From a bacterium (GTDB lineage Bacteria > Sysuimicrobiota > Sysuimicrobiia > Sysuimicrobiales > Segetimicrobiaceae), in assembly GCA_035295165.1 (NCBI GenBank), contig DATGJN010000004.1, positions 1-46,504 of the forward strand: DNA of 46,504 bases, read 5' to 3'. A program made the position numbers and the translations under genes. Shown in pieces: positions 31,485 through 46,504 of the stretch. Positions within the stretch are counted from its first letter, which is position 1; every line of letters starts with the position of its first letter. The notes below the pieces were generated by a model. That model worked only from the letters and a program-made list of their open reading frames with translations, searched no databases and was not told the origin of the DNA.

Positions 31485-31739
31485 CTATCTTCGGGCCGGC
31501 CGCGACGCCTGGTCGAGCGCCGCCCGCAGCCCGGCGATCGTCACCTGACCCCGCGCGATCTCCACGCCGTCCAGGGCGACGACCGGAATCACCTCGCGAT
31601 ATCGGGCGTGCAGATCGGGGTCGCGCGTGATGTCCGCGAGCCGTAGCTCAAACGAGAACTCCCGCCGCAGGCGCGCGGCGACCTGCTCCGCCTTCTCGCA
31701 GAGGCAACAGCCCGGCTTGCCGTAGATCGTGAGCGTCAC
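31485..31739 (-). CDS. Glutaredoxin-like protein
   Basis: An 84-residue thioredoxin-fold protein. LTIYGKPGCCLCEKAEQVAA gives a beta strand followed by a CxxC-type redox site (Cys-Cys-Leu-Cys), and the cis-proline region IPVVALDGVEIARGQVT is intact. It resembles the DUF836/glutaredoxin family of small thiol oxidoreductases. The GTG start at 31739 overlaps the TGA of the DUF881 gene by four bases (GTGA), which both fixes the start and implies translational coupling. The partner is unknown; the adjacent flavoprotein gene, 38 bp downstream, is one candidate. Confidence 0.85.
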   Translation of the reverse strand: MTLTIYGKPGCCLCEKAEQVAARLRREFSFELRLADITRDPDLHARYREVIPVVALDGVEIARGQVTIAGLRAALDQASRPARR

Positions 31740-32461
31740 GGCGACACCGGCCGGGCGAAGTGCAGCGAGGGTCGCGAGCGTGCTGCAGGCAGGGTCACGG
31801 CGTCGAGCGTTACAATGACGATGCGCAACCCGAGCCCTCGGAGTCCCTCCACCACACCGCCCCGGATGTTGAGGGCGCCGGCGAGCGCCTGCGGATCTCC
31901 GATCGCGACCACCGCGTACGGCGCTGACAACCGTTCCCCGTCGGCGATGATCGTCCCGCCGACCTGGCTGAACCCTGTGGTTGCGGTGACCCGGTGCCCG
32001 CTGACCGCGACCGCCTCCGCTCCGGCAGCCCACAACTCGTTTGCGACGCTGGCGAGGTCCACGTACTGCACGACCGCCGGCGCCTGCCCGGCCCCGGGAG
32101 CCTTGCCGTCGTCCATGGTCACGCGGACGCCGGGACCGATCAACGCGACGAAACCGGAAACGGTGCGGATCGCGTCGAGTTCCTGGACCAGTGCCTGGTC
32201 GGCACTGCGCCGTTGCGCGGCCGCGGACTCAAACTCGACGAGTCGGCGGGTGAGCCCGGCCACCTGAGCCTCCAGGCCCCGGCGCGCCTCGCGCTCCTGG
32301 CCGAGCATCGCCGCGAGCGCGTACACGTTCCGGGTCGGCACGCCCTCCTGGCCCGAGAGCGCCCGACCCGCACGCAATTGCACGACAACCAGGAACCCAA
32401 GCGCCATCAGCAGCACAGCGAGGAGTGCCTGCCACCACGCCGTGCTACTCTTCCCAGACAT
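31736..32461 (-). CDS. DUF881 family protein
   Basis: A 241-residue DUF881 (YlxW-like) protein. One N-terminal membrane anchor (WWQALLAVLLMALGFLVVVQL), a coiled coil at about residues 50-95 (LGQEREARRGLEAQV) and a globular domain with GPGVRVTMDDGK, LASVANELWAAGAEAVAVSG and RVTATTGF are all typical. The globular part would lie outside the cytoplasm. DUF881 genes usually neighbour cell-division genes in Firmicutes and Actinobacteria; their role is unclear. Here the gene overlaps the end of dnaE by 17 bases and the glutaredoxin gene by four, so it is coupled to replication rather than division genes. GCGAGG just upstream supports the start. Confidence 0.88.
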   Translation of the reverse strand: MSGKSSTAWWQALLAVLLMALGFLVVVQLRAGRALSGQEGVPTRNVYALAAMLGQEREARRGLEAQVAGLTRRLVEFESAAAQRRSADQALVQELDAIRTVSGFVALIGPGVRVTMDDGKAPGAGQAPAVVQYVDLASVANELWAAGAEAVAVSGHRVTATTGFSQVGGTIIADGERLSAPYAVVAIGDPQALAGALNIRGGVVEGLRGLGLRIVIVTLDAVTLPAARSRPSLHFARPVSP

Positions 32462-35400
32462 TCCCCTCGCCGAAGACCTGCTCGAGTTCCTGCTGGAGTT
32501 CGGCGGTGTCCGCGAGCCGGATCCGAACCGGGATGACGTGCTCGCCGGTGTCCGTGACGACGTGCGCGCAGACCTGTCGGTCGCCCGGGTGCGCCTCGAG
32601 ATACTGATACAACTGCTCGATCTCCTCGCGTGTTGTCACGCGGATCCGGAGCGGGGCACGCACGCCGCTGCTGCGGTCCGGCCTTGGGGGTTCCGGCGCC
32701 ACGCGCACGGCGGTGGCGGTCCCGGCGGCGCTCACCGGGGCGCTCGACGCGGCACGGACCGACGGCGCGCCGTTCCGAGCGGGCCGTCCGTTGCCGTACC
32801 GGTCCCCCCGCCCCCGCGGCGCCCGCGGCGGGACATGAAGGTCGGCTGCTTCCTCCGGCGTTGCCGGGAGCGGGATGACCTCGTCGCAGAGGAGCTTGGC
32901 GCCCTGCTCGTCGATGCCCACCTTGCCGCGGAGGAGCACCACCGCATCCCGCTTGAGCGCAAAGCCCTGCTGCTCGTACGCCCGCGGGAACACGAGCACC
33001 TCCACGCTGCCGGTCAGATCCTCCAGGGTCAGAAACGCCATCGCCGATCCCGACCGCGTAATGCTGCGCTTGACGGCCCCGACCAACCCTCCGACGACGA
33101 CCTCTTGGCGATCGCGCAGGTCGGGCAACTGAGCAATTGTGGTCGTCGCCTTACTGTTGATGAGAGGCTGCCACCGCCTGAGAGGATGGTCGGAGATGTA
33201 CAGTCCCAACATCTCCCGCTCCATCGTCAGGCGTTCCTCGGGGCTGAACTCCTGGACCGGGGCCGCCGCTTCCGGCAGGACGGGCGCGCTCGCGCCGAGG
33301 TCGAACAGACCGGTCTGCCCCTGGGCCCGCGCCCGCTGGCTGCGCTGCGCCTGCTCCAGCGTGTCATCGAGCGACTGCAGCATCTGCGCCCGCGACGCGC
33401 CGAGCGAGTCGAGCGCCCCCGCCTTGACGAGACTCGCGATCACTCGCTGGTTCACTTGGCGGGTGTCGACGCGCGCGCACAGGTCCGCGAGGGTTCGGAA
33501 CGGTGCGCCGGACGCCCGCGCCGCGATGATCGTGTCCACGGCCCCCACGCCGACGTTCCGGATCGCCGCGAGCCCGAACCGAATGGCCCCGCCCACGACG
33601 GTGAACGATGCCTCGCTCTCGTTGACGTCGGGGGGCAGGATCTGGATCCCCATGCGTTGGCACTCGCCGACCGCTTGGGCGATCCGCTCCATGTCCCCGG
33701 CGGTGCTGCTGAGCACCGCGGTCATGTACTCCGCGGAGTAGTGCGCCTTCAGGTAGGCGGTGTAGTACGCGATCAGGCCGTAGCACGCCGCGTGCGCCCG
33801 ATTGAAGCCGTAGCGCGCGAATGGCTCAAACTGCTCGAAGATCTGGTCGACGATCCTGGCCGGCACGCCGTTCTTGCGGGCGCCGGCGACGAATTTCTCT
33901 CGCTGGGCCAGCAGGCGATCCTTGATCTTCTTGCGGATCGCGTAGCAGAGCACGTCGGCTTCGGCCAGCGTGTACCCTGCGACCGCCTGCGCGACGGTCA
34001 TGATGTCCTCCTGGTAGACCATCACGCCGTAGGTCTCCTTGAGGACCGGCTCCAGCAACGGGTGGAGGTAGGTCACCGGCTCCTCGCTGTGCTTGCGCCG
34101 GATGTACGCGGGGATGTTCGCCATCGGGCCGGGCCGGAACAGGGCGACCATCGCCATCACGTCCTCGATCCGGTCCGGCCGCAACTCGCGAAGGTAGCGC
34201 GTCATGCCGCGACCTTCCAGTTGGAAGATCCCGGTCGTGTCGCCGGAGGCCAGCAGCGCGTACGTCGGTTGATCGTCGAGCGGCAGGCGTTTCAGATCGA
34301 TGTCGACCCCGTGCGTGTCACGGATCAGCGCGATCGCGGTATCGAGGATCGTCAGGTTGGTGAGCCCCAGGAAATCCATCTTGAGGAGCCCGAGCCGGGC
34401 GACGCTGTTCATGTCGTACTGCGTCATCAAGAGGTCGCCCTTGGTCGCCCGCTGCAGCGGGACATGATCGGTCAGCGGATCACGAGAGATGATGACGCCG
34501 GCCGCGTGCGTGCTGGCGTGCCGGGCGACACCCTCGAGTTTCTGGGCCATGTCAAGGAGCTGGCGGATCTGCGGCGAACCGTCGGCGGCCGCGCGCAGTT
34601 CGGGCTCCGCCGCGAGCGCGTCTTTGAGCGCGACGTTGGCGCCGGGCACCAGCTTGGCGATCCGATCGACGTCGCCGTACGGAAGCCCCATCACGCGCCC
34701 GACGTCGCGGATCGCGGCGCGGGCCCCCATCGTGCCGAACGTGATGATCTGGGCCACACGATCGGCTCCGTACCGGTCCACGACGTACTTGATCACCTCG
34801 TCGCGCCGGCTGTCCATGAAGTCCACGTCGATGTCCGGCATCGTGTAGCGCTCGAGGTTCAGAAACCGGTCAAACGGGAGGCGATACGCGAGCGGGTCGA
34901 CATCGGTCACGCCGCACGTGTACAGGACGAGGCTGCCGGCCGCGGAGCCTCGCACCGTCGTCAGAATGCCGCTGCGGCGAGCGAAGTTCACAAAGTCCTG
35001 CACGATCAGGAAGTACGCCGCGTAGCCCATCTTCGTGATGACGCCGAGCTCGTAGTCGAGCCGCTCGCGCACCGGCTGGGTCATCTGTCCGAAGAGCCGC
35101 ACGGCCCCCTGCTCGCAGAGACGGCGGAGGTACGACTCCGGGGTCTCGCCCTCGGGCACGACCACGTGCGGGAGCTTGAGCGTGTCGGTATCGAGCGTCA
35201 CTCGGCACCGCTCGGCGATCACGAGCGTGTTCCGGAGGGCCTCGGGCAGATCCGGGAAGCGCGCCGCCATCTCCTCCGGGCTCTTCAGGTAGAATTGCGG
35301 CGTGTCGCCCATCCGCGGCTTGTCGTGCTGGTCGAGGCTCATCCCCATCTGGATGCACATCAGCGCGTCCTGGGCGTCGGCCTCGTCCTGGGTCACGTAG

Positions 35401-36026
35401 TGCACGTCGTTCGTGGCGACGAGGGGCAACCGCATCTCGCGGGCGAGCTGGACGACGCCGCGTACGACGGTCTCTTGATCGGCCAGCCCGTGGTTTTGGA
35501 CCTCAAGGTAGAAATTGTCCGGCCCCAGGATATCGCGGTACGCCGCGGCCAGGTCACGGGCGGCCTTCATGTCGTCGCGCAGGATCGCCCGCGGGATCTC
35601 GGCTTGGAGGCATCCCGACAGGCCGATCAGGCCTTTCGCATGCCGGCTGAGCAACTCCCGGTCGATCCGCGGTTTGTAGTAGAACCCGTCGAGGTGCGCC
35701 GCGGTCGTGAGCTGCAGGAGGTTCCGGTAGCCCTCGTCGGTTGACGCGAGCAGCACCAGATGGAACGCCGATGCGTCCAGCCTCGGGTCTCGATCGGTCA
35801 TCCGGCGGGGCGCGACATACGCCTCGACGCCGATGATCGGGACGATGCCGTGCGCGCGCGCGCTCTCGTAGAACTCCACCGCGCCGTACATCACGCCGTG
35901 ATCGGTCACACCGAGCGCCGGAATCCCCAATGCCGCCGCGCGCTGCATCAGCGCGTCGATCCGGCTTTCTCCGTCCAGCAGGGAATACTCGGTGTGAAGA
36001 TGACAGTGGACGAACTCAGCGGGCAT
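32445..36026 (-). CDS. dnaE: DNA polymerase III alpha subunit
   Basis: The replicative polymerase, 1193 residues. The N-terminal PHP domain keeps all visible metal-site motifs (VHCHLHTEYSLLDGESRID, GVTDHGVMYGA, GVEAYVA, LIGLSGCLQAEIP, LEVQNHG, ATNDVHYV), unlike the decayed PHP of E. coli DnaE, so it may have Taq-type Zn-dependent proofreading. The catalytic core has PDIDVDFMDSRRDEVIKYV and GSAAGSLVLYTCG. The beta-clamp/HhH region is followed by an OB fold (VVVGGLVGAVKRSITRSGS) and a Pro/Arg-rich linker to the C-terminal domain. AAGGAG lies eight bases before the ATG. DUF881 overlaps its end. The upstream gap of 156 bp contains a hairpin but no clear promoter. Confidence 0.98.
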   Translation of the reverse strand: MPAEFVHCHLHTEYSLLDGESRIDALMQRAAALGIPALGVTDHGVMYGAVEFYESARAHGIVPIIGVEAYVAPRRMTDRDPRLDASAFHLVLLASTDEGYRNLLQLTTAAHLDGFYYKPRIDRELLSRHAKGLIGLSGCLQAEIPRAILRDDMKAARDLAAAYRDILGPDNFYLEVQNHGLADQETVVRGVVQLAREMRLPLVATNDVHYVTQDEADAQDALMCIQMGMSLDQHDKPRMGDTPQFYLKSPEEMAARFPDLPEALRNTLVIAERCRVTLDTDTLKLPHVVVPEGETPESYLRRLCEQGAVRLFGQMTQPVRERLDYELGVITKMGYAAYFLIVQDFVNFARRSGILTTVRGSAAGSLVLYTCGVTDVDPLAYRLPFDRFLNLERYTMPDIDVDFMDSRRDEVIKYVVDRYGADRVAQIITFGTMGARAAIRDVGRVMGLPYGDVDRIAKLVPGANVALKDALAAEPELRAAADGSPQIRQLLDMAQKLEGVARHASTHAAGVIISRDPLTDHVPLQRATKGDLLMTQYDMNSVARLGLLKMDFLGLTNLTILDTAIALIRDTHGVDIDLKRLPLDDQPTYALLASGDTTGIFQLEGRGMTRYLRELRPDRIEDVMAMVALFRPGPMANIPAYIRRKHSEEPVTYLHPLLEPVLKETYGVMVYQEDIMTVAQAVAGYTLAEADVLCYAIRKKIKDRLLAQREKFVAGARKNGVPARIVDQIFEQFEPFARYGFNRAHAACYGLIAYYTAYLKAHYSAEYMTAVLSSTAGDMERIAQAVGECQRMGIQILPPDVNESEASFTVVGGAIRFGLAAIRNVGVGAVDTIIAARASGAPFRTLADLCARVDTRQVNQRVIASLVKAGALDSLGASRAQMLQSLDDTLEQAQRSQRARAQGQTGLFDLGASAPVLPEAAAPVQEFSPEERLTMEREMLGLYISDHPLRRWQPLINSKATTTIAQLPDLRDRQEVVVGGLVGAVKRSITRSGSAMAFLTLEDLTGSVEVLVFPRAYEQQGFALKRDAVVLLRGKVGIDEQGAKLLCDEVIPLPATPEEAADLHVPPRAPRGRGDRYGNGRPARNGAPSVRAASSAPVSAAGTATAVRVAPEPPRPDRSSGVRAPLRIRVTTREEIEQLYQYLEAHPGDRQVCAHVVTDTGEHVIPVRIRLADTAELQQELEQVFGEGNVWEE

Positions 36027-36182: not shown

Positions 36183-37547
36183 CTACCCTGCCTCGGCAAC
36201 CAGGAGGACGTTCACGTGACTCGTGTGCGGACTCGTGTCCACCGGTCGGGCTCGCACGATCCGGTACCCAGCCGCCTGCAGGACGTCCGCGTCTCCTCCG
36301 AGACACCGCAGCGACCGCCCCAGGTACACGATCCGTTCGACCCCGGCACGACGGAGGGCCGGCACGACCCCCGGCGTGAGCCCCGTCCCGTCCGGGCGCA
36401 GGAACGCGAGGCGCACGGGCGTCGCCCGCGCGGCCTTCTGCACCGCCCGCGCCGCGTCGCGGGTGTAGAAGGTGCAGTTCTCGATCCGGTTGTCGCGGAC
36501 GTTGGCGCGGGCGGCGTCGACCAACGGGCCGCTCGTGACGCCCACGGCGCGGCCGGCGGCAAGCGCGAGATGCAGCGTGTACGCGCCGATCCCGGCACCG
36601 ATCTCGATCACCGTATCGGACCCGGACGCGTCCAGCGCGGTCAGGATCAGCTCGATCACACCAGGCAGCGCCCGTGCGTTCGCCGGGAACTCCGCGAGCA
36701 GCGGGACGCCATAGCGCACCCCGGCGACCTCTTCCCGCACGCGGGTCCGCCCCCAGAGAAGCGACGGTCGCCGCCCGGCCGGCACGGGACCACGTCGCGG
36801 GACGCCGACCTCGAGGATCCCGACGAGCCCAGGGACACGGTCGAGAAGCGCACGCACGACCGCCGTGCGCGCCGCCGCACCGAGAGGTTCGGTGACGGTG
36901 AGCCCGAGCAGCACCTCGCCGGTTGCCGCGCCGACGCGACCGATCACGCCGCGGAACGGCGGGCCGTCCGCGAGCGCCGCCCACCCGTCGCGGACCGCCC
37001 CGAGGAGCGCGACATTCGCCGGGTGCTGGACCGGGCAGGTCTGGGCGTCGATCACGCGGGTCTCGCCCCAGGCGTAGAACCCCAGCACCGGCGCTCCGTC
37101 GGGCGGACCGGCGGTCGCTTCAAGCCGAGTCCGGAACCCCCACGGGGGACCCCATCCGATCGCCGGCTCCACCTCGACGGTCCGAAGGCCGGGACGCGCG
37201 AGCGCCTGGGCCACCAGCAGAGCCTTTTGCTCGAGCTGCGTGACGTAGTTCAGGTGCTGCCACTGGCAGCCGCCGCACTGCCCAAAGTATGGGCACAGCG
37301 GCGGCACTACCCCCTCGCCCGGCCGCCGGAGCGCCACCACCCGGCCGCGCGTCGACCCGCGGGCGGTCTTGAGAATCTCCACTGTGGCGACTTCGCCGGG
37401 CGCCGCATAGGGCACGGCCAGGACCCGGCCGCCGACGCGGCCGAGGGCCGTGCCGTCCGATCCCATCTGCTCAAACGCCACGATCACGTGGGCGCCGGGT
37501 ACCAGGGCCTTCGGCGGACGGACACGCGCTCGCGCCGGCGGCGGCAT
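36183..37547 (-). CDS. TrmA/RlmD-family RNA methyltransferase homologue lacking catalytic residues
   Basis: A 454-residue homologue of the m5U RNA methyltransferases TrmA/RlmC/RlmD. The TRAM domain and the Fe-S motif CPYFGQCGGCQWQH are intact, with a later Cys in DAQTCPVQ. The SAM fold is recognisable but altered: VIEIGAGIGAYTLHLA where the family has a DLYCGVG-type motif. In the active site, the SCNP motif holding the catalytic Cys reads VYLGRSLRCLGG, with Arg (codon 36315-36317) at the Cys position. The DPPRxG motif reads RPDGTG, and the general-base Glu of HxE is Asn in HTSHVN. The enzyme is therefore probably not an m5U methylase of the known mechanism. The start is uncertain: ATG 37547 has no clear ribosome site; GTG 37697 would add 50 Arg-rich residues. 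Confidence 0.82.
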   Translation of the reverse strand: MPPPARARVRPPKALVPGAHVIVAFEQMGSDGTALGRVGGRVLAVPYAAPGEVATVEILKTARGSTRGRVVALRRPGEGVVPPLCPYFGQCGGCQWQHLNYVTQLEQKALLVAQALARPGLRTVEVEPAIGWGPPWGFRTRLEATAGPPDGAPVLGFYAWGETRVIDAQTCPVQHPANVALLGAVRDGWAALADGPPFRGVIGRVGAATGEVLLGLTVTEPLGAAARTAVVRALLDRVPGLVGILEVGVPRRGPVPAGRRPSLLWGRTRVREEVAGVRYGVPLLAEFPANARALPGVIELILTALDASGSDTVIEIGAGIGAYTLHLALAAGRAVGVTSGPLVDAARANVRDNRIENCTFYTRDAARAVQKAARATPVRLAFLRPDGTGLTPGVVPALRRAGVERIVYLGRSLRCLGGDADVLQAAGYRIVRARPVDTSPHTSHVNVLLVAEAG

Positions 37548-37686: not shown

Positions 37687-39144
37687 CTATCCCGCACCGA
37701 TCCGTTCCCGCAGCAGCCGGTTGACCATCTCGGGATTGGCCCGGCCCCGGGTCTTCTTCATCACCTGGCCGACGAGAAACGCGACGGCCCGATCCTTGCC
37801 CGCCCGGACGTCTCCGACGGGGCCGGGGTTGTCGGCGATCGCCGCGTCTACGAGGCGCACGATCTCCGCTTCGTCGCTGATCTGCACCAGCCCGCGGTCG
37901 CGGACGATCTCGTCCGCCGCGCGGCCGGTCCGGAGCATCTCCTCGAGCACCTCTTTCGCGGATCGCCCGCTGAGCGTCCCACGCTCGATCAGCGCGAGCA
38001 GCTCCGCGAGCGCGCCCGGGCCGATCTGTGCCTGCTCGATCTCGAGACCGGCCGCATTCAGGTAGGCCGCAACGTCGCCGACGAGCCAGTTGCCGACTGT
38101 TTTCGGATGCGGAAAGCGGCGCACCGTCTCCTCGAAGAATTCGGCCATCGGGCGGGTCTCGGTGAGCAGCCCCGCGTCGTGCTCCGGCAGCCCGTACGTC
38201 TCGATGTACCGGCGGCGGCGCGCGTCGGGGAGTTCCGGGAGGTCCGCGCGCACACGCTCGACCGACGACTCGTCCACGCGCACCGGCAGCAGGTCGGGTT
38301 CCGGGAAGTACCGGTAGTCCTGCGCCTCCTCCTTCTCCCGCGAGGCAAACGTGATCCCACGGTCCTCGTCCCAGTGACGCGTTTCCTGCACGACGGCCTC
38401 GCCCCGCTCGAGCAACGCGCGCTGGCGCGCTTCCTCGACGCGCAGGGCCCGCTCGACCGCGCGCAGCGAGTTCATGTTCTTCACCTCGGTCCGGATCCCG
38501 TGCGGCGCGCCCGGGGCGCGCAGCGACAGGTTCGCGTCACAGCGCAGGGTGCCTTCCTCCATGCGCCCCGTCGTCACACCGGCGTACTGGAGCACCGCAC
38601 GCAGCCGGGTGAGAAACGCGCGCGCTTCCTCCGGCGATCGCAGGTCGGGGTCGGACACGACCTCCATGAGGGGCGTGCCGCTCCGATTGTAATCGACGAG
38701 GCTGCGTCCCTCCGCGTGAACGAGCCTGCCGGTGTCCTCCTCAAGGTGCACGCGGCGGATGCCGACGCGACGCACCTCCCCGGCCAGATCCAACACCAGC
38801 GCTCCGGCGGTCGCCAGCGGCGGATGCCCGGTGTACTGATATTGGGAAATCTGGTAGTTCTTGGGGATGTCCGGATAGTAGTAGTTCTTGCGGTGGAACC
38901 GGCTCTCGGGGTGGATCGTGCACCCGAGCACGAGAGCCGTGCGCACCCCGAACTCCACGGCCTGCCGGTTGAGCACGGGCAGGGACCCGGGGAGACCGAG
39001 ACAGACCGGGCACGTCAGGGTGTTGGGTGGTGCCCCGAATGTAACCGCGCACCCGCAGAACATCTTGCTGGCCGTGTTGAGCTGAACGTGCACCTCCAGC
39101 CCGATGACCGTCTCGTACGCCGCCGGGGCGCGGGTCGCGTTCAT
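37687..39144 (-). CDS. gatB: Asp/Glu-tRNA amidotransferase subunit B
   Basis: GatB, the tRNA-binding kinase subunit of GatCAB. The complex converts Glu-tRNA(Gln) and/or Asp-tRNA(Asn) to the amide forms. The 485-residue protein opens with [20 protein letters not shown], followed by the zinc site residues CGCAVTFG and [29 protein letters not shown] and [14 protein letters not shown] are further landmarks, and the helical tail plus YqeY-like domain end in [20 protein letters not shown]. The ATG overlaps the gatA stop by four bases (ATGA). It is the last gat gene; the TrmA-like gene follows. Confidence 0.98.
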
Positions 39145-40643
39145 GCGCGGGTGCGCCGGCCCTCGGCCGCTGCGAGCGGCGGCCGGAAGGCGTGCGTCCC
39201 AATCGCCTGCTCGAGCGCGTGCGCGACGTTGAGCACCGTGGCTTCGTCAAACCGCCGGCCCGCAATCTGGAGTCCCACGGGGAGCCCCCCAACGACCCCG
39301 CACGGCACCGAGGCGCCCGGGAGCCCCGCCAGGTTGAGCGGAACGGTGAACACGTCGGCGAGGTACATCTGGAGCGGGTCCTCGACGCGCTCGCCGAGCG
39401 GAAACGCGGTCGTCGGCGCCACCGGCCCGACGAGGATGTCGACCGCGGCGAGCGCATCCTCCATCTCGCGCCGGATCACCTCGCGGACACGCTGCGCCCG
39501 CAGGTAGAACGCGTCGTAGTAGCCAGCGGAGAGCGCATACGTCCCCAGCATGATACGCCGCTTCACCTCCGCGCCAAACCCCTCATCGCGCGTCCGTGCG
39601 TACATGCCGATCAGATCGTCGGCGCGGTCGGTGCGGCGGCCGTACAGCACCCCCGCGTACCGGGCCAGGTTGCTGCTCGCCTCCGCCGGCGCAACGATGT
39701 AGTATGCGGGCAACGCGTAGGGCGCGTGCGGCAGCGACACGTCTACGCGCCGGGCCCCGAGCCCCTCGAGCGTTCGGATCGCGTCCCGGACCGCGTTCGC
39801 GACCCCGGCATCCACGCCGTCCTCCAGGAACTCGCGCACCACGCCGAGGCGGAGTCCGCGCACGCGCCCCGTCAGCAGCGCGGGATAGTCGGGCACCTCG
39901 ACGTCGGCCGACGTCGCGTCGGCCGGATCGCGCCCGGCGATCTCGCGCAGCAGCAGCGCGGCGTCGCGCGCATCGCGCGCGAACGGCCCGATCTGGTCGA
40001 GCGAGGACGCGAACGCGATGAGTCCGTACCGGGAGACGCGCCCGTACGTCGGCTTGAGACCGACGACACCGCAGAACGCGCCCGGCTCGCGGATGCTGCC
40101 GCCAGTGTCGCTGCCGAGCGCGAGCGTCGCCTCACCGGCGGCCACCGCCGCCGCCGACCCACCGCTGCTGCCCCCGGGGACCCGGGCCGGATCCCAGGGG
40201 TTCCGCGTGGGACCGAACGCGGAGTTCTCAGTGCTGCTCCCCATCGCAAACTCGTCGCAGTTCGTCTTGCCCAGCACGATCGCCCCCGCCTCACGCAGGC
40301 GCGTGACCACGGTCGCGTCGTACGGCGGCCGAAATCCCTCGAGGATACGCGAGCCCGCCGTCGTCGGCACGCCGCGCGTACAGAGGTTGTCCTTAAGCGC
40401 GACGGGCACGCCCGCGAGCGCCGGCGCGTCCTCTCGCCCGGCGGCCGCATCCCACCGCGCGGCGTCGCGGAGCGCGGCGTCGGCGTCGAGATACAGATAC
40501 GCGTGGATCCGCGGCTCCACCGCGTCGATCCGGTCGAGCACCGCCCGGACGACCTCGGTCGGGCGCATCTCTCCCCGACGGTAGCGCGCCCTGAGCTCCC
40601 ACGCGGGCAGGTCCGCGGGCGACGCGGACGGGGTGGGCGTCAT
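39141..40643 (-). CDS. gatA: Glutamyl/aspartyl-tRNA amidotransferase subunit A
   Basis: GatA, the amidase subunit that releases ammonia from glutamine. The 500-residue amidase-signature protein has the catalytic Lys in [17 protein letters not shown], the cis-Ser/Ser pair in [15 protein letters not shown] and [17 protein letters not shown], and [19 protein letters not shown], diagnostic of GatA. The length is normal. The ATG at 40643 overlaps the gatC stop by four bases, and its own stop overlaps the gatB start, so the three subunits are translationally coupled and made in equal amounts. Confidence 0.98.
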
Positions 40644-40975
40644 GGGGTGCCGGCGTCCTCCGCGCCCTCGATCACGGGCGGGACGACGACGTAGCCGTCT
40701 TCGACGGCCGGCGCGTTTGCGAGCGCCTGCTCCCGGGGCAGCGACGGCACGGCCCGGTCGTCGCGCAGCGCGCCGACCGCAGGATCCCCCTGGCCCGCCG
40801 CGGGTGTGTCCCCGAGATCGAGCTCGGTGAGCCGCTGGAACGACTCGAGGATGCCGCCGAGTTGCGCGCGGAACAGACGGCGCTCTTCGGGCGTGAGCTC
40901 AAGCCGGCTCAACCGGGCCACGTGCGCCACGGTGGCATCGTCGATCGTCGGTGCAGGCGACCGGTCGTCGGACAC
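40640..40975 (-). CDS. gatC: Asp/Glu-tRNA amidotransferase subunit C
   Basis: GatC, the small belt subunit that holds GatA and GatB together. The 111-residue protein has the family core [20 protein letters not shown] and [20 protein letters not shown], and ends with [12 protein letters not shown] chose GTG 40975 because a perfect AGGAGGG lies six bases upstream; a longer frame upstream is Arg-rich and overlaps the promoter. It is the first gene of gatC-gatA-gatB, with a likely promoter about 30 bases upstream. Confidence 0.95.
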
Positions 40976-41069: not shown

Positions 41070-42845
41070 CTACTGTTTGTAGAGAGTGTAGAAGTACTGC
41101 CCGGGGAAGATCGGGTTGTAGTACCACCCGTGCACCCACGAACGCATCGTGAAATACGTGGTCGGCTGCACGAGGAACAGGTATGGAAGATCGTTGTACG
41201 CGATCATCGAGACCTGCTTGTACAGCGCCTTGCGCTGGGCCGGATCGGTTACGCTGACCGCCTGATCGATCAGCCGGTCGGCGTCCGCACTGTGATACCC
41301 GCCGCGGACCGGGAAGTACCCGGCCGAGGCGAGGAACGGCTGCGCGAAATCATGCGGATCGGGATAGTCCGCGAACCACCCGAGGAAGTACATCGTCCCC
41401 TTGTGACTGAACAACAGGGAGTTGAGCGTGCTCGCCGGCACCGGGCGGAAGGCGATCTGGAACTTGGGGTTGAGGGCCTGCACGTCGTCGCGCACGATCT
41501 CGGCTCCGACCTGCCGCGCGGCGTTGCCGGCGGTGTACGGGATCGTGAACTTGAACCCGGTGTCCCAGGCCTTGCCGCCCATCGCCTCCTTGAACTCGGC
41601 GATCGCCTTGTCGCGGCTCGTCGCGTAGGTGGGGATCGACGGGTCGTACCCGAGCAGCCCCTGCACGATCGGGCCGTGCGGCAGGATGCCCTGCCCGGCG
41701 TAGGCGCTGTTCAGGTTCTGGGTGTAGTCGAACGCGTACGCGAACCCCCGGCGGACGTGGATATCCGCGAAGAAGTCCGGTGGAATCCCCTGCCCGTCGA
41801 GTTTGCCGCTGCCCGCGTCGGGGTTGCCATCGGTGTCGATCTTGAAGTTGAACTGGAGCGTCTGCACCGCGATCTGGGGCAGCTTGGTCTGCATCACCGT
41901 GTTGGGTAGGTTTCGCAACTGCGACTGTTCGTTCAGGGACGCCACGATCAGGTCCGCGTCGCCCTGCTGCAGCTGCAGGCGCCGCGTGGCCAGCTCCGAC
42001 ACCGACCGGATGATGACACGGGCGAGCGCCGCCGGCTTGCGCCAGTAGTGGGTGTTGCGGACCAGGATCACTTCCTTGGTCTGAGGATCCCACTGCTGCA
42101 GCATGAACGGCCCGGTGCCGTCCATGTGGTTGAATTGGTACCGGTCCTCGTTCTTCGGGTTGTTGAACTTCTGCCAGGTCGTCGCGCCCCCGTCCCAATC
42201 GTTGTGCGCCGCCGCCCACTTGCGCGGCATCACGCCGCCCCAGGCCGCCATGATCGTCAGAAATGGCGCAAACGGCTTCTTGAGATGGAAGACGACGGTA
42301 TTGCCCTGCGCGTACACGGCCTTCTGGACCTGGTCCCACGTCACCTGAATCTTGCCCTGGGCGTCCCGCGTGCTGTCGACGCCGAGGAGCGGGCTCAACA
42401 GCAGCCACGCGGGCCCGCCGGCTTGGTCCTGCAGCAGGAACCGCCGGAACGAGTACACGACGTCGTCCGTCGTCATCGTGGAGCCGTCGTGGAACTGGAC
42501 GCCCTGGCGGATCGGGAACGTGTACGTCAGCCCATCCTTGCTGATCAGGCCGTTCTCCAGGCTCGGGACTTCCGTCGCGAGCATCGGCGAAAACTTGTCG
42601 ATCGACGAGCCGCTGTAGATGATCAGCGTCTCGTACACGTTTGGCCAGATCGGTTCGGCGGAGTAGATGTCATAGGCGAGGTCGGGATCGAGGCTCGTGA
42701 CGTCGCCGAACTGCAGTTCAACGAAGGTGTCGGGATTCTTCACCGGCTCACCGGCACCCCGGGCGACGAGCACGCCGAGCGAGAGCATCAACACGACGGC
42801 GACCAACGCCGCCGCACCGCGGACGGTCCACGACGCGATACGCAT
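41070..42845 (-). CDS. ABC transporter substrate-binding protein, family 5 (paralogue B)
   Basis: A 591-residue SBP_bac_5 protein, longer than average. The signal peptide is MRIASWTVRGAAALVAVVLM and following hydrophobic residues to about 30; no lipobox Cys. Family landmarks include LQFGDVTSLDPDLAYD, TYTFPIRQGVQFHDGS and VVYSFRRFL. ATG 42845 has AGGAGGAGAG immediately upstream. It is strikingly similar throughout to the partial SBP at 44920-46504 (e.g. NGLISKDGLTYTFPIRQGV in both, and MRSWV-GWYYN near both C-termini), so the two arose by duplication. It lies downstream of the permease pair, 50 bp away, ending the operon. The two paralogues probably feed one permease with different ligands. 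Confidence 0.95.
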   Translation of the reverse strand: MRIASWTVRGAAALVAVVLMLSLGVLVARGAGEPVKNPDTFVELQFGDVTSLDPDLAYDIYSAEPIWPNVYETLIIYSGSSIDKFSPMLATEVPSLENGLISKDGLTYTFPIRQGVQFHDGSTMTTDDVVYSFRRFLLQDQAGGPAWLLLSPLLGVDSTRDAQGKIQVTWDQVQKAVYAQGNTVVFHLKKPFAPFLTIMAAWGGVMPRKWAAAHNDWDGGATTWQKFNNPKNEDRYQFNHMDGTGPFMLQQWDPQTKEVILVRNTHYWRKPAALARVIIRSVSELATRRLQLQQGDADLIVASLNEQSQLRNLPNTVMQTKLPQIAVQTLQFNFKIDTDGNPDAGSGKLDGQGIPPDFFADIHVRRGFAYAFDYTQNLNSAYAGQGILPHGPIVQGLLGYDPSIPTYATSRDKAIAEFKEAMGGKAWDTGFKFTIPYTAGNAARQVGAEIVRDDVQALNPKFQIAFRPVPASTLNSLLFSHKGTMYFLGWFADYPDPHDFAQPFLASAGYFPVRGGYHSADADRLIDQAVSVTDPAQRKALYKQVSMIAYNDLPYLFLVQPTTYFTMRSWVHGWYYNPIFPGQYFYTLYKQ

Positions 42846-42895
42846 CTCTCTCCTCCTCTGCGGTTGTCTTCGCTGCATCCTGCGCGAGCTCGGCG

Positions 42896-43849
42896 CTAGC
42901 GGCTCCCTTGCTGGCGCGGGTCGAAGATGTCCCGGAACGCGTCCCCGAGCAGGTTCCATCCCAGGACGAACAGGAAGATCGCCGTCCCGGGCACGGCGAG
43001 CGTGTACCAGAACTGGAACGGGTCACCGGCGGTGCCCAGGATCCAGTTGTGCGACAGGTTGATGAGCTGTCCCCAGTCCGCGTACCCCGGCGGGGCGCCA
43101 AGCCCGAGGAACGACAGCGCCGCGAAGGTGATCACGATCTGCCCCATGTCCAGCGACGCGAGGATCAGGATCGGGTAGATCGTGTTCGGAATCACGTGCC
43201 GGCCGATGATGACCAAATCGCGATCGCCGAGCGCCCGGGCCGCCTGCACGAACTCCATGTCCCGCACGCGGAGAAACTCCGCCCGCAGGAGACGCGTGTA
43301 CGTGGGCCACTGCACCGCGGCGATGGCGATCATGGCGTTGCGCACGCTCTGCCCGAGGACCGCCACGATCACGACCGCCAGGATCAGGCCCGGGAACGCG
43401 AGGAAAATATCGGTCACGCGCATGACCAGCTCGTCCATCCATCCGCCATAGTATCCGCTCAGGCTCCCGAGGACGAGCGACACGCCTATCCCGATCGCCA
43501 CGACGGTCAGCGCGACGAGGAGCGCGCTCCTCGTGCCCCACACGGCGCCGTAGTAGAGATCGAACTGCTCCTCGGTAGTCCCAAATGGGTGGCCCGGCCC
43601 GGGCGGGTGGGGATCGCTCGAGTACCCCTCGTGGGGAATCATGTAGGGGTTCCGCTCGGTGGGATGCGCGAGCAGCGGCGCGAGCAGCGCCACCACGCCG
43701 AAGAACACGACGATGCACAGACCGAGCATCGACAGCGGGTTCTGGCGGAACCGACGCACCGTGCGCTGCCACGTCGTCTGCTGCACGCGCGGCGCGGGCG
43801 CCGCGCCCGGCGCCACGAGCGGTGGCGAGGTCGTGCGCACCGCGCTCAT
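42896..43849 (-). CDS. DppC-type ABC transporter permease
   Basis: A 317-residue permease with an N-terminal cytoplasmic extension rich in Pro/Ala, then FRQNPLSMLGLCIVVFFGVVAL as first span. A periplasmic insert (HPTERNPYMIPHEGYSSDP) precedes GHPFGTTEEQFDLYY, a variant of the usual LGTDxxGRD signature with the Arg-Asp replaced. Five spans follow; the EAA loop is VQAARALGDRDLVIIGRHVIPN, then ALSFLGLGAPPGYADWG. ATG 43849 overlaps the stop of the DppB-type partner by four bases. It serves the paralogous SBPs on either side of the permease pair. No ATPase gene is seen. Confidence 0.95.
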   Translation of the reverse strand: MSAVRTTSPPLVAPGAAPAPRVQQTTWQRTVRRFRQNPLSMLGLCIVVFFGVVALLAPLLAHPTERNPYMIPHEGYSSDPHPPGPGHPFGTTEEQFDLYYGAVWGTRSALLVALTVVAIGIGVSLVLGSLSGYYGGWMDELVMRVTDIFLAFPGLILAVVIVAVLGQSVRNAMIAIAAVQWPTYTRLLRAEFLRVRDMEFVQAARALGDRDLVIIGRHVIPNTIYPILILASLDMGQIVITFAALSFLGLGAPPGYADWGQLINLSHNWILGTAGDPFQFWYTLAVPGTAIFLFVLGWNLLGDAFRDIFDPRQQGSR

Positions 43850-44871
43850 TTGAGGCGAATCCTCGGATCGACCACGGCATAGAGCACGTCTGCGCACAGG
43901 TTCCCGAGCACGAGCATCCCGGCGAACGCGAGCGCGAACCCCGTGACCGCGGGAATGTCGAGCTGCTGGCTCGCCGCCACTCCCCACCGCCCGATCCCCG
44001 GCCAGTTGAACACGGTCTCCGTGATCACGACGCCGGAGAGCAGGCCCACGAACAGCAAGCCCGCAAGGGTGATCACCGGGATCAGGGCGTTGCGGCGCGC
44101 ATGCTTATCGATCACCACCGACTGGTTCAGTCCTTTGGCCTCGGCGGTCCGGACGTAGTCGGCGCGCAGCGTCTCGAGCATGGACGACCGCGTGATCCGC
44201 ACGAGCACGGCCGTCAGGAAGTAGGTGAGCGTTGCCACCGGGAGCACCAAGTGGCGGAGCGCGTCCCAGAACAGCCACCACTGCCCGTTAAGGAGTGTGT
44301 CCACCGTCATGAGACCGGTGTACGGGTGAAACCGGCTGCTGCGGACGAACAGGTCCGCCTGAAGCCCGAGCCGCCCGGGCGGGAACCAGCCGAAGTGCCC
44401 GTAGAAGATCATCAGCAGCAGGAGGCCCCACACGAACGTCGGCAGCGATGCGCCGCTGATCGACGTGAACCGGCTGATGTGATCGACGAGCTGGTCCTTG
44501 CGGACCGCTGAGAGGGTGCCGAGCCAGATCCCGAGCGTGAGGATGCACGCGAAGGAGTAGAGCGCAAGTTCGAACGTCGCCGGGAAGTACCCTGCGATCG
44601 CGATGGCCACCGGCTCCCGTGCCGTCTCGGACCACCCGAGATCGCCGTGCAAGACCTGGCGCAGCCACTCCCAGTACTGGACGTACACGGGCTGGTCCAG
44701 ATGATACTTGCGGATGATGTCGGGCAGCGCGTTCAACTGCTTGGGGTCGGTGATGTAGAGGCTCGCCCGCATCGCCGGCGTGAGCAGCTGCGTTAGCGAA
44801 AAAATGAGCAGTGTCACCCCGACGGCCACGAACGGGAGCAACAACAGCCGGCGCGCGATGAACGTGCTCAT
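43846..44871 (-). CDS. DppB-type ABC transporter permease
   Basis: A 341-residue permease: MSTFIARRLLLLPFVAVGVT as first span, then IFSLTQLLTPAMRASLYI where DppB proteins usually have GDP. LDQPVYVQYWEWLRQVLHGDLGWSE follows, a common DppB block. The EAA loop is VRTAEAKGLNQSVVIDKHARRNAL and the C-terminus CADVLYAVVDPRIRLK is typical. Its ATG lies eight bases after a 26-bp perfect palindrome, and no purine-rich ribosome site is visible in between, as for the dppB-like gene at 4374. It is coupled to the DppC-type gene (ATGA overlap). Confidence 0.95.
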   Translation of the reverse strand: MSTFIARRLLLLPFVAVGVTLLIFSLTQLLTPAMRASLYITDPKQLNALPDIIRKYHLDQPVYVQYWEWLRQVLHGDLGWSETAREPVAIAIAGYFPATFELALYSFACILTLGIWLGTLSAVRKDQLVDHISRFTSISGASLPTFVWGLLLLMIFYGHFGWFPPGRLGLQADLFVRSSRFHPYTGLMTVDTLLNGQWWLFWDALRHLVLPVATLTYFLTAVLVRITRSSMLETLRADYVRTAEAKGLNQSVVIDKHARRNALIPVITLAGLLFVGLLSGVVITETVFNWPGIGRWGVAASQQLDIPAVTGFALAFAGMLVLGNLCADVLYAVVDPRIRLK

Positions 44872-44879
44872 CCGGCGGC

Positions 44880-44905
44880 GCCGGCCCGCCGCGCGGCGGG
44901 CCGGC
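44880..44905 (-). terminator. 26-bp perfect GC palindrome between SBP and permease genes
   Basis: A perfectly self-complementary GC-only sequence, able to form a 13-bp arm pairing with a tight loop. It starts 14 bases after the SBP stop and ends eight bases before the dppB-like ATG. There is no T-run. Position and composition match the hairpin at 4376-4402, suggesting the same function in tuning SBP versus permease expression. Confidence 0.6.
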
Positions 44906-44919
44906 GGGAGACCCCCGTG

Positions 44920-46504
44920 CTACTGTTTCGACATCGTGTAGAAGTCAAATCCCACATTGGCGAGGGGCGGCAGGATCGCGTTGTAATACCACCCGCGCAC
45001 CCATGACCGCATCACGACGAACTGAGTCGGTTGCGCCTCGAAGATACCGGGCACGTCTTCGTAAGCGAGCTTCGTGAGATCGCGGTAGATCTGCGTGCGC
45101 TTCGCGGGATCTGCGGTCTCCGCGCCCTGCCGGACCATCTGATCCGCGCGTGGATCGGAGAACCCGTTCCGCTTCGGGTAATCGCCGTTCGTCGCCAGGA
45201 ACGGTTGGGCGAAGTCATCCGGGTCGGGATAGTCGGCCGCCCACCCGAGGGCGTACAGCGTTCCCTTGTGCTGGACGGTGGCCTGGAGGAACGTGGACCA
45301 CTGGATGTTCCGGACGTCGATCTTGAACTTCGGGTTCAACGACTCCACCGAGTCCTTGATGATCTGCGCGCCAATCTGACGCGCCGCGTTGCCGGTGTTG
45401 TAGGTCTCGGTGAAGTGGAAGCCGGTGTCCCAGAGCTTCCCGCCCCACGCTTCCTTGAACTCCGCCGTTGCCTTCTGCTTGTCGAACGTGAACTTCGGCA
45501 GCGTCGGATCATAGCCGAGCAGTCCCTGGATGATCGGGCCGTTCGGTTGCAGCGCCTTGCCCCGGAACCCGTCGCGGATGAACGTGCCGTAGTCAAACGC
45601 ATACGAGAACGCCCGCCGGACGTGCACGTCCGAGAAGAAGTCGGGCGGGATCCCGTTGCCGTCGAGCTTGCCGCTCCCGACGTCGGGGTTCCCGGACGCA
45701 TCGATCTTCTGGTTGAAGTGCATCACCTGCACGACCAGCGTGGGGAGTCCGTCCTGGATCGCGACGTCGGCCATCCCCGTCACCTGGCTCTGGTCCGGCC
45801 GGTCCACCGAGATCACGTCCGCGTCGCCGCGCTGGAGTTGCAGCCGCCGTGCCGCGAACTCGGTGACGGTCCGGATCACGACGCGCGCGAGCGGGGCGGG
45901 AGCGCGCCAGTAGTGCTCGTTGCGGACCAGGATCAACTCCTTGGTCTGCCGGTCCCAGGTCTGCAGCGAGAACGGCCCCGTGCCGTTCGTATGATCGAAC
46001 TCGTAGCGGTCCTGCAGCTTGGGGTTGTTGTACTTCGCCCAGGTCGCGGCGCCGCCGTCCCAGTCCCCGTGCGCTGCCGCCCACTTCTGCGGGAGCACAA
46101 ACGACCAGGCGGCCAGGATGCTCAGGAACGCCGCGGAAGGGCGCTTCAGGTGGAACACGACGTTCTGGCCCTCGACCGTCACGGCTTTGGCCGCGTCGGC
46201 GTACTTGACCACGACGGCTCCCTTGCTGTCCCGCGTGCTGTCCGTGCCCAGCAGCGGCGTCAGCAGCAGCCACGACGGGCCACCGTCGCGGTCCTGCAAC
46301 ATGAACCGCAGCATCGAGTACTGGACGTCCGCCGGCGTCATCACGGTGCCGTCGTGGAAGTGGACGCCCTGGCGGATCGGGAACGTGTACGTCAGCCCGT
46401 CTTTGCTGATGAGCCCGTTCGCCACGCTCGGCACCTCGGTCGCCAAGCGCGGCACGTACCGGGAGAGCACGCTGCCGTCGTACGTGATCAGCGTCTCGTA
46501 GATT
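44920..46504 (-). CDS. ABC transporter substrate-binding protein, family 5 (paralogue A, partial)
   Basis: The C-terminal 527 codons of an SBP_bac_5 protein; the frame is open to the window edge, so the signal peptide and start lie beyond it. The visible part begins IYETLITYDGS, aligning with VYETLIIYSGS about 80 residues into paralogue B. It contains NGLISKDGLTYTFPIRQGVHF and GNPDVGSGKLDGNGIPPDFF, and ends in WYYNAILPPLANVGFDFYTM. It is the first visible gene of the third uptake operon and is followed by the palindrome and permease pair. Divergence from paralogue B is spread throughout, with ligand-site regions most changed, consistent with different ligands. Confidence 0.95.
   Translation of the reverse strand, partial: IYETLITYDGSVLSRYVPRLATEVPSVANGLISKDGLTYTFPIRQGVHFHDGTVMTPADVQYSMLRFMLQDRDGGPSWLLLTPLLGTDSTRDSKGAVVVKYADAAKAVTVEGQNVVFHLKRPSAAFLSILAAWSFVLPQKWAAAHGDWDGGAATWAKYNNPKLQDRYEFDHTNGTGPFSLQTWDRQTKELILVRNEHYWRAPAPLARVVIRTVTEFAARRLQLQRGDADVISVDRPDQSQVTGMADVAIQDGLPTLVVQVMHFNQKIDASGNPDVGSGKLDGNGIPPDFFSDVHVRRAFSYAFDYGTFIRDGFRGKALQPNGPIIQGLLGYDPTLPKFTFDKQKATAEFKEAWGGKLWDTGFHFTETYNTGNAARQIGAQIIKDSVESLNPKFKIDVRNIQWSTFLQATVQHKGTLYALGWAADYPDPDDFAQPFLATNGDYPKRNGFSDPRADQMVRQGAETADPAKRTQIYRDLTKLAYEDVPGIFEAQPTQFVVMRSWVRGWYYNAILPPLANVGFDFYTMSKQ

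Follow-up and report, generated by a model that had tools for sequence, protein, structure and literature searches.

RlmDx, a divergent RlmD-family paralogue of Sysuimicrobiota that keeps its Fe-S cysteines and has probably lost m5U catalysis

Why should a homologue of an RNA methyltransferase keep the ligands of an iron-sulfur cluster and part with the residues that catalyze methylation? The question is raised by an open reading frame in a 46,504-nucleotide stretch of contig DATGJN010000004.1 (GenBank assembly GCA_035295165.1), which we call the window and which comes from a member of the Sysuimicrobiota. A preliminary description of the window had noticed a TrmA/RlmD-family protein with altered active-site elements and had offered three readings: an RNA-binding Fe-S protein, a methylase with a new mechanism, or a regulator of rRNA/tRNA modification, possibly linked to translation through the neighboring gatCAB genes. 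We refer to the protein as RlmDx, our name for the second, divergent RlmD copy of Sysuimicrobiota (CSP1-3). The gene and the relevant parts of the protein are located as follows:

36183..37547, minus strand: RlmDx open reading frame, 454 amino acids, ATG at 37547, in-frame GTG at 37697 possible (from translation, ORF list, Pfam/NCBIfam and an alignment of 27 members)
37323..37484, minus strand: TRAM domain, residues 22-75 (approximate); Pfam PF01938 matches residues 22-71 at 8.2e-08, above the Pfam cut-off; model strands E20-28 to E65-75
37266..37295, minus strand: Fe-S motif C85-x5-C91-G-G-C94, residues 85-94, in 26/26 RlmDx rows covering the site
37035..37037, minus strand: fourth Fe-S ligand C171 (DAQTCPVQ), in 28/28 RlmDx and 35/35 canonical rows
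36573..36611, minus strand: VIEIGAGIGAYTL, residues 313-325, replacing SAM motif I (canonical VxDLYCGVGTFxL)
36381..36398, minus strand: RPDGTG, residues 384-389, in place of DPPRxG; Asp in 0/28 RlmDx, 35/35 canonical and 74/76 other rows
36315..36317, minus strand: Arg411 at the catalytic Cys position, YLGRSL for (Y)VSCNP; RlmDx rows have R18 H5 T2 Q1 S1 G1
36210..36212, minus strand: Asn446 (HVN) at the HxE general base position; Glu in 2/28 RlmDx rows, His the commonest (17)

The window protein is homologous to RlmD over its full length. It scores 194 bits against the NCBIfam RlmD model TIGR00479 (residues 30-445), passing the equivalog cut-off of 183.55, and matches the RumA structure 1uwv in phmmer at 2.1e-34; it aligns to RlmCD as well. 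As the NCBIfam model accepts RlmDx, annotation pipelines would misname it 'RlmD' although it is probably inactive. AlphaFold2 models were calculated for the window protein (P0002), which has a SAM motif (pLDDT 92.3, pTM 0.91), and for L046, a member from family f6 that has none (pLDDT 94.5, pTM 0.91); the input alignments include canonical homologues, and the models show a plausible fold, not filled pockets. Foldseek places the window model at a TM score of 0.90 to RlmCD (5xj1) and 0.84 to RumA (2bh2), and the two models behave alike (TM ∼0.9 to RlmCD, ∼0.8 to RumA). By both programs RlmDx has the TRAM, central and Rossmann-like parts of the family fold.

The Fe-S site is conserved throughout. 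The window protein reads C85-PYFGQ-C91-GG-C94-QWQH, i.e. C-x5-CGGC-xx-QH, and all four RumA-type cluster cysteines (C85, C91, C94, and C171) are kept in every RlmDx row covering them, in line with the preliminary description, which had reported the motif and the TRAM domain as retained. It had also read the SCNP Cys as Arg, DPPRxG as RPDGTG, the HxE Glu as Asn, and the SAM motif as unusual. These readings are correct, the last corresponding to EIGAGIGAY in place of DLYCGVGTF; the description gave no strand and did not mention the changes of FFQ to EFP and of GVE to GVT that we find in addition.

We compared active-site positions in 28 RlmDx rows, 35 canonical proteins of the phylum, and 76 proteins from elsewhere; control rows short of the full count mostly have a gap at the site, and two outside rows carry Asn for the DPPR Asp. 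Among rows covering the site, the catalytic Cys is found in none of the 28 RlmDx proteins, in 34/34 canonical proteins of the phylum and in 75/75 from other lineages, and the HxE Glu shows the same control counts (34/34 and 75/75) against two RlmDx rows. Both the Phe and the Gln of FFQ are absent from all 28 RlmDx rows and present in 35 canonical and 75 other proteins. The ribose-binding Glu of GVE (position 338) is likewise found in 0/28. The preliminary description had pointed to a Cys four residues on as a possible substitute nucleophile; this residue, C415, occurs in 1/28 rows and is rejected, and no alternative Cys is conserved in the clade. SAM motif I is partly kept in f1, the family of the window (AGIGAY), and lost in f2 (ACEDG) and in part of f6 (HATTP), so that its decay differs between families, whereas the Fe-S cysteines persist. 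The same substitutions as in the window protein recur in 27 relatives, which is beyond chance. Arg363 (36459-36461) is invariant in all 28 RlmDx rows at a position just before the adenine-contact residue, where canonical proteins mostly have Gly or Ala; it may serve a function specific to the clade or block the pocket.

Mutagenesis of RlmCD provides a measure of these losses. Wild-type RlmCD is strongly active and the E443Q mutant is not; D381A retains ∼10%, and F281A loses most of its activity (PMC5614603). In the window protein the corresponding residues are Asn446, Arg384, and Glu286, respectively (numbering via the phmmer alignment). Judged by these mutants and by the mechanism of the family, m5U formation by the known route is implausible, as nucleophile, base, methyl-side Asp, and ribose Glu are lost. 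RlmDx is thus almost certainly not an m5U methylase, and the reading of the window ORF as a probably catalytically dead RlmD/RlmCD-family paralogue is well supported.

A search of the genome for a second, canonical copy, as the preliminary description had advised, located a homologue with 32% identity to RlmDx at G000:C88:78632-79984. There FFQTN, DLYCGVGTF, DPPRSG, SCNP, and HVE are all intact, identifying it as canonical RlmD, which would cover the canonical m5U chemistry in this genome. Nearly every well-assembled genome with RlmDx also encodes canonical RlmD. Sysuimicrobiota has been described as a phylum (PMC11604079), and the relatives compared here are metagenome-assembled genomes of this uncultured phylum (soil). 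By count from the hit lists, RlmDx is present in 30/43 Sysuimicrobiota genomes and five of the seven families: in 12/12 genomes of f1, 7/10 of f2, and 9/11 of f6, and also in f5 and f7. The single f3 genome and the seven f4 genomes lack it, and several further absences fall in incomplete drafts. Given the eight f3 and f4 genomes, RlmDx is not essential to the phylum. A close member lies in VBAO01000199, deposited as 'Terrabacteria group bacterium ANGP1' and now Candidatus Segetimicrobium genomatis, also of the Sysuimicrobiota. TrmFO was found in none of the 43 genomes of the phylum, which makes a search for a correlation between RlmDx and TrmFO uninformative. Canonical RlmD is the sole PF05958 match above cut-off in the genome of the window, so that no dedicated tRNA m5U54 writer was found.

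Does RlmDx form a lineage of its own? The preliminary description had suggested a phylogeny to see whether the substitutions mark a conserved clade, and they do: in a mixture-model tree calculated without the active-site columns, 23/23 RlmDx rows form one clade (support 100/100), and the canonical RlmD proteins of the phylum form a separate one (100/99). A profile HMM gives full-length RlmDx members 494-652 bits, with partial members lower, and all proven canonical proteins ≤372 bits in 386 genomes. By this score gap no RlmDx was found in the 343 genomes sampled outside the phylum, where 20 homologues from among the best scorers all carry Cys, DPP, and HxE and nearly all of ∼50 further ones read as canonical. 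A contig scan returned only close Sysuimicrobiota members and unrelated canonical homologues. Two outside homologues are of a different kind: L125 (G102:C118) has lost the Fe-S cysteines and kept the catalytic Cys, the reverse of RlmDx, and L124 (G095:C18), a second and divergent homologue, has an unusual Fe-S spacing (CTTYRGVCTICP), and its catalytic site reads FCDIE. As to an origin by duplication within the phylum, an AU test disfavors RlmDx as the sister of the canonical RlmD found there (p 0.0127), a result that likely long-branch effects make unsafe. The best explanation of these sequence data is that RlmDx is an ancient, vertically inherited clade of Sysuimicrobiota.

The surroundings of the gene are conserved as well:

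37687..39144, minus strand: gatB, upstream neighbor, 139 bp before RlmDx (ORF; tblastn synteny in f1, f2, f5, f6, and f7)
39141..40643, minus strand: gatA (ORF, synteny)
40640..40972, minus strand: gatC (Pfam PF02686, 6.5e-14)
32445..36026, minus strand: dnaE, downstream neighbor (ORF, synteny), taken from its sequence to encode DNA polymerase III alpha

The order gatC-gatA-gatB-RlmDx, usually followed by dnaE, recurs in f1, f2, f5, f6, and f7, which supports vertical inheritance; synteny does not prove a GatCAB function. The link to gatCAB suggested by the preliminary description holds as far as gene order goes and is not obligatory: RlmDx sits away from gatB in genus g3 of f1, and dnaE follows gatB without an intervening RlmDx in f3 and in one f4 genome (G019). 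The g3 members L051 (G004), L052 (G007), and L053 (G009) have the most diverged RlmDx (branch length 1.57), with ATSPARL or similar in the Cys region and all four Fe-S cysteines kept. Upstream of gatC, positions 41070-46470 of the window hold peptide-type ABC transporter genes (two SBP_bac_5 proteins and two permeases), and related genes also lie near gatC in several other families. Directly after dnaE, positions 31485-32461 encode a DUF881 protein and a glutaredoxin-like (DUF836) protein; the DUF881 gene adjoins dnaE in other families too. Promoter/terminator and Rfam scans around the operon returned nothing useful.

RlmDx is under purifying selection, as the preliminary description had supposed. 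Pairwise dN/dS values are 0.12-0.33 for RlmDx, against 0.13-0.24 for canonical RlmD from the same genomes, and both halves of the protein are constrained. The ratio of RlmDx to canonical identity is 0.94 for residues 181-270, 0.61 for the methyltransferase domain, and 0.55 for the FFQ linker; relative to the canonical enzymes, constraint as read from these alignments is shifted off the active site. In the central domain, Asn140, Phe144, and His158, conserved in canonical enzymes, are lost, and an RNA target, if there is one, is therefore probably not bound as by RlmD. RlmDx is also more basic: the mean net charge of residues 18-450 is +13.7 versus +1.8 for canonical proteins, and RlmDx exceeds the RlmD of the same genome in 23/23 pairs, which are related, so that a p-value overstates their independence. 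As 3/61 outside homologues are equally basic, charge alone is not diagnostic, and it would be compatible with DNA or protein binding as well.

The basic shift, in a protein that retains the TRAM domain, the central domain, and the cluster ligands, points to RNA binding, and of the three earlier readings that of an RNA-binding Fe-S protein is best supported. We favor, with some reserve, the view that RlmDx is an RNA-binding chaperone or assembly factor. It would be a pseudo-methyltransferase in which the RlmD/RlmCD architecture is preserved in full, from TRAM domain and Fe-S lobe to the central RNA-recognition and Rossmann-like domains, around an active site probably unable to make m5U by the known mechanism: the nucleophilic Cys (which attacks C6 of uracil), the Asp close to the methyl group of SAM, the base, and the FFQ Phe and Gln are all gone, in several families together with the SAM glycine motif. 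Methylation would be left to the canonical RlmD encoded elsewhere in the genome, and the strongly basic RNA-binding parts of RlmDx might hold or refold structured RNA, either 23S rRNA in large-subunit assembly or tRNA. The [4Fe-4S] cluster would then be a structural element, and the stability of the protein may be tied to Fe-S supply. We infer cluster binding, RNA binding, the nature of the RNA, and the chaperone or assembly role.

Could RlmDx still be a SAM-dependent RNA modification enzyme of a Cys-free type (e.g. for N- or 2′-O-methylation), its pocket remodeled with Arg or His for Cys? Motif I is GxGxG-like in f1 and resembles KsgA (weak Pfam RrnaAD match, E 0.004), its acid is Glu or Asp in 28/28 RlmDx, and Arg or His at 411 (23/28) and Arg363 (28/28) are conserved in the clade. 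However, the ribose-binding acid is gone from every row, DPP(R) has no common replacement (His, Thr, Ser, Arg, Gln, Ala, or Glu), and motif I has broken down in f2 and in some members of f6, where the gene is nevertheless conserved and syntenic; Arg363, taking the place of the Gly ahead of the adenine contact, can be expected to crowd the pocket. With SAM-binding residues lost and their decay differing by family, the methylase with a new mechanism envisaged earlier is disfavored, and we regard such an enzyme as unlikely. That RlmDx is a degenerate, misassembled, or functionless pseudogene copy is extremely improbable. It does evolve faster than canonical RlmD in a number of pairs, chiefly in g3, but the frames are intact in nearly all members, and the 27 relatives, dN/dS, conserved synteny, and a single ancient clade rule out a pseudogene or an assembly error; relatives with the normal Cys and Glu, which would have spoken for a degenerate copy, were not found apart from the two rows with Glu.

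Two other readings assign RlmDx a partner. As a regulator or partner of canonical RlmD it might compete for, or present, the same 23S site; the two proteins share a fold and nearly always occur together in well-assembled genomes, and prozymes and pseudoenzymes provide precedent in other families. RlmD/RumA acts as a monomer, though, the two genes are unlinked, and RlmDx has not kept the central-domain residues that canonical enzymes conserve, so that we hold this to be rather unlikely. Alternatively, a tRNA-binding adaptor or chaperone for Glu-tRNA-Gln or Asp-tRNA-Asn could work with GatCAB in tRNA-dependent amidation, as the conserved gene order and the folding of tRNA by TrmA-type proteins (PMC11301382) might suggest. 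This we consider quite improbable: GatCAB occurs without RlmDx in f3 and f4 and unlinked from it in g3, and dnaE shares the synteny, which a conserved housekeeping cluster would explain.

Among the papers covered, a search for reports of an inactive RlmD paralogue returned none. Compared with RlmD/RumA, the 23S rRNA m5U1939 methyltransferase (PDB IDs 1uwv and 2bh2), RlmDx shares the architecture, the TRAM domain, and the four Fe-S cysteines at 26% identity over the fold alignment, and it lacks the catalytic Cys, DPPR Asp, FFQ, ribose Glu, and HxE Glu; its net charge is far above that of canonical RlmD from the same genomes. RlmCD from Streptococcus pneumoniae (SP_1029; PDB IDs 5xj1, 5xj2, and 5zq0), the best fold match (TM 0.90), is active and by alignment lacks the CxxxxxCGGC cluster motif, whereas RlmDx presents the reverse, with the motif kept and the active site gone. 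RlmDx looks like a natural case of separated functions in the RlmD family, in which catalysis was lost and the Fe-S site and RNA-binding body were kept for the age of the phylum, and it would make directly testable what the Fe-S cluster of RumA-type enzymes is for and whether a catalysis-independent role exists.

TrmA, a member of the same superfamily, methylates U54 and has no TRAM/Fe-S lobe. It has a second, methylation-independent RNA-folding activity, acting as a tRNA chaperone (PMC11301382), and in RlmDx only the non-catalytic part would be left. A parallel is found in the TrmFO-like proteins of Mollicutes, where both catalytic cysteines are lost and replaced by Tyr in a whole paralogue clade, a duplicate of an m5U methylase (PMC7226160), but in the flavin/folate family COG1206, not COG2265. 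METTL17/Rsm22, a mitoribosome assembly factor, is like RlmDx in combining a methyltransferase fold with four cluster cysteines that are better conserved than the SAM motif; METTL17, whose cluster is of the [4Fe-4S] type, binds rRNA in assembly (PMC11046306). It belongs to another family with another arrangement and acts on the small subunit in mitochondria, an analogy of logic and not homology. In that sense RlmDx might, as a rather doubtful extension of our favored view, be a bacterial counterpart of METTL17: an assembly factor or translation checkpoint that binds RNA, depends on Fe-S, performs no catalysis, and links Fe-S status to ribosome or tRNA maturation across the phylum.
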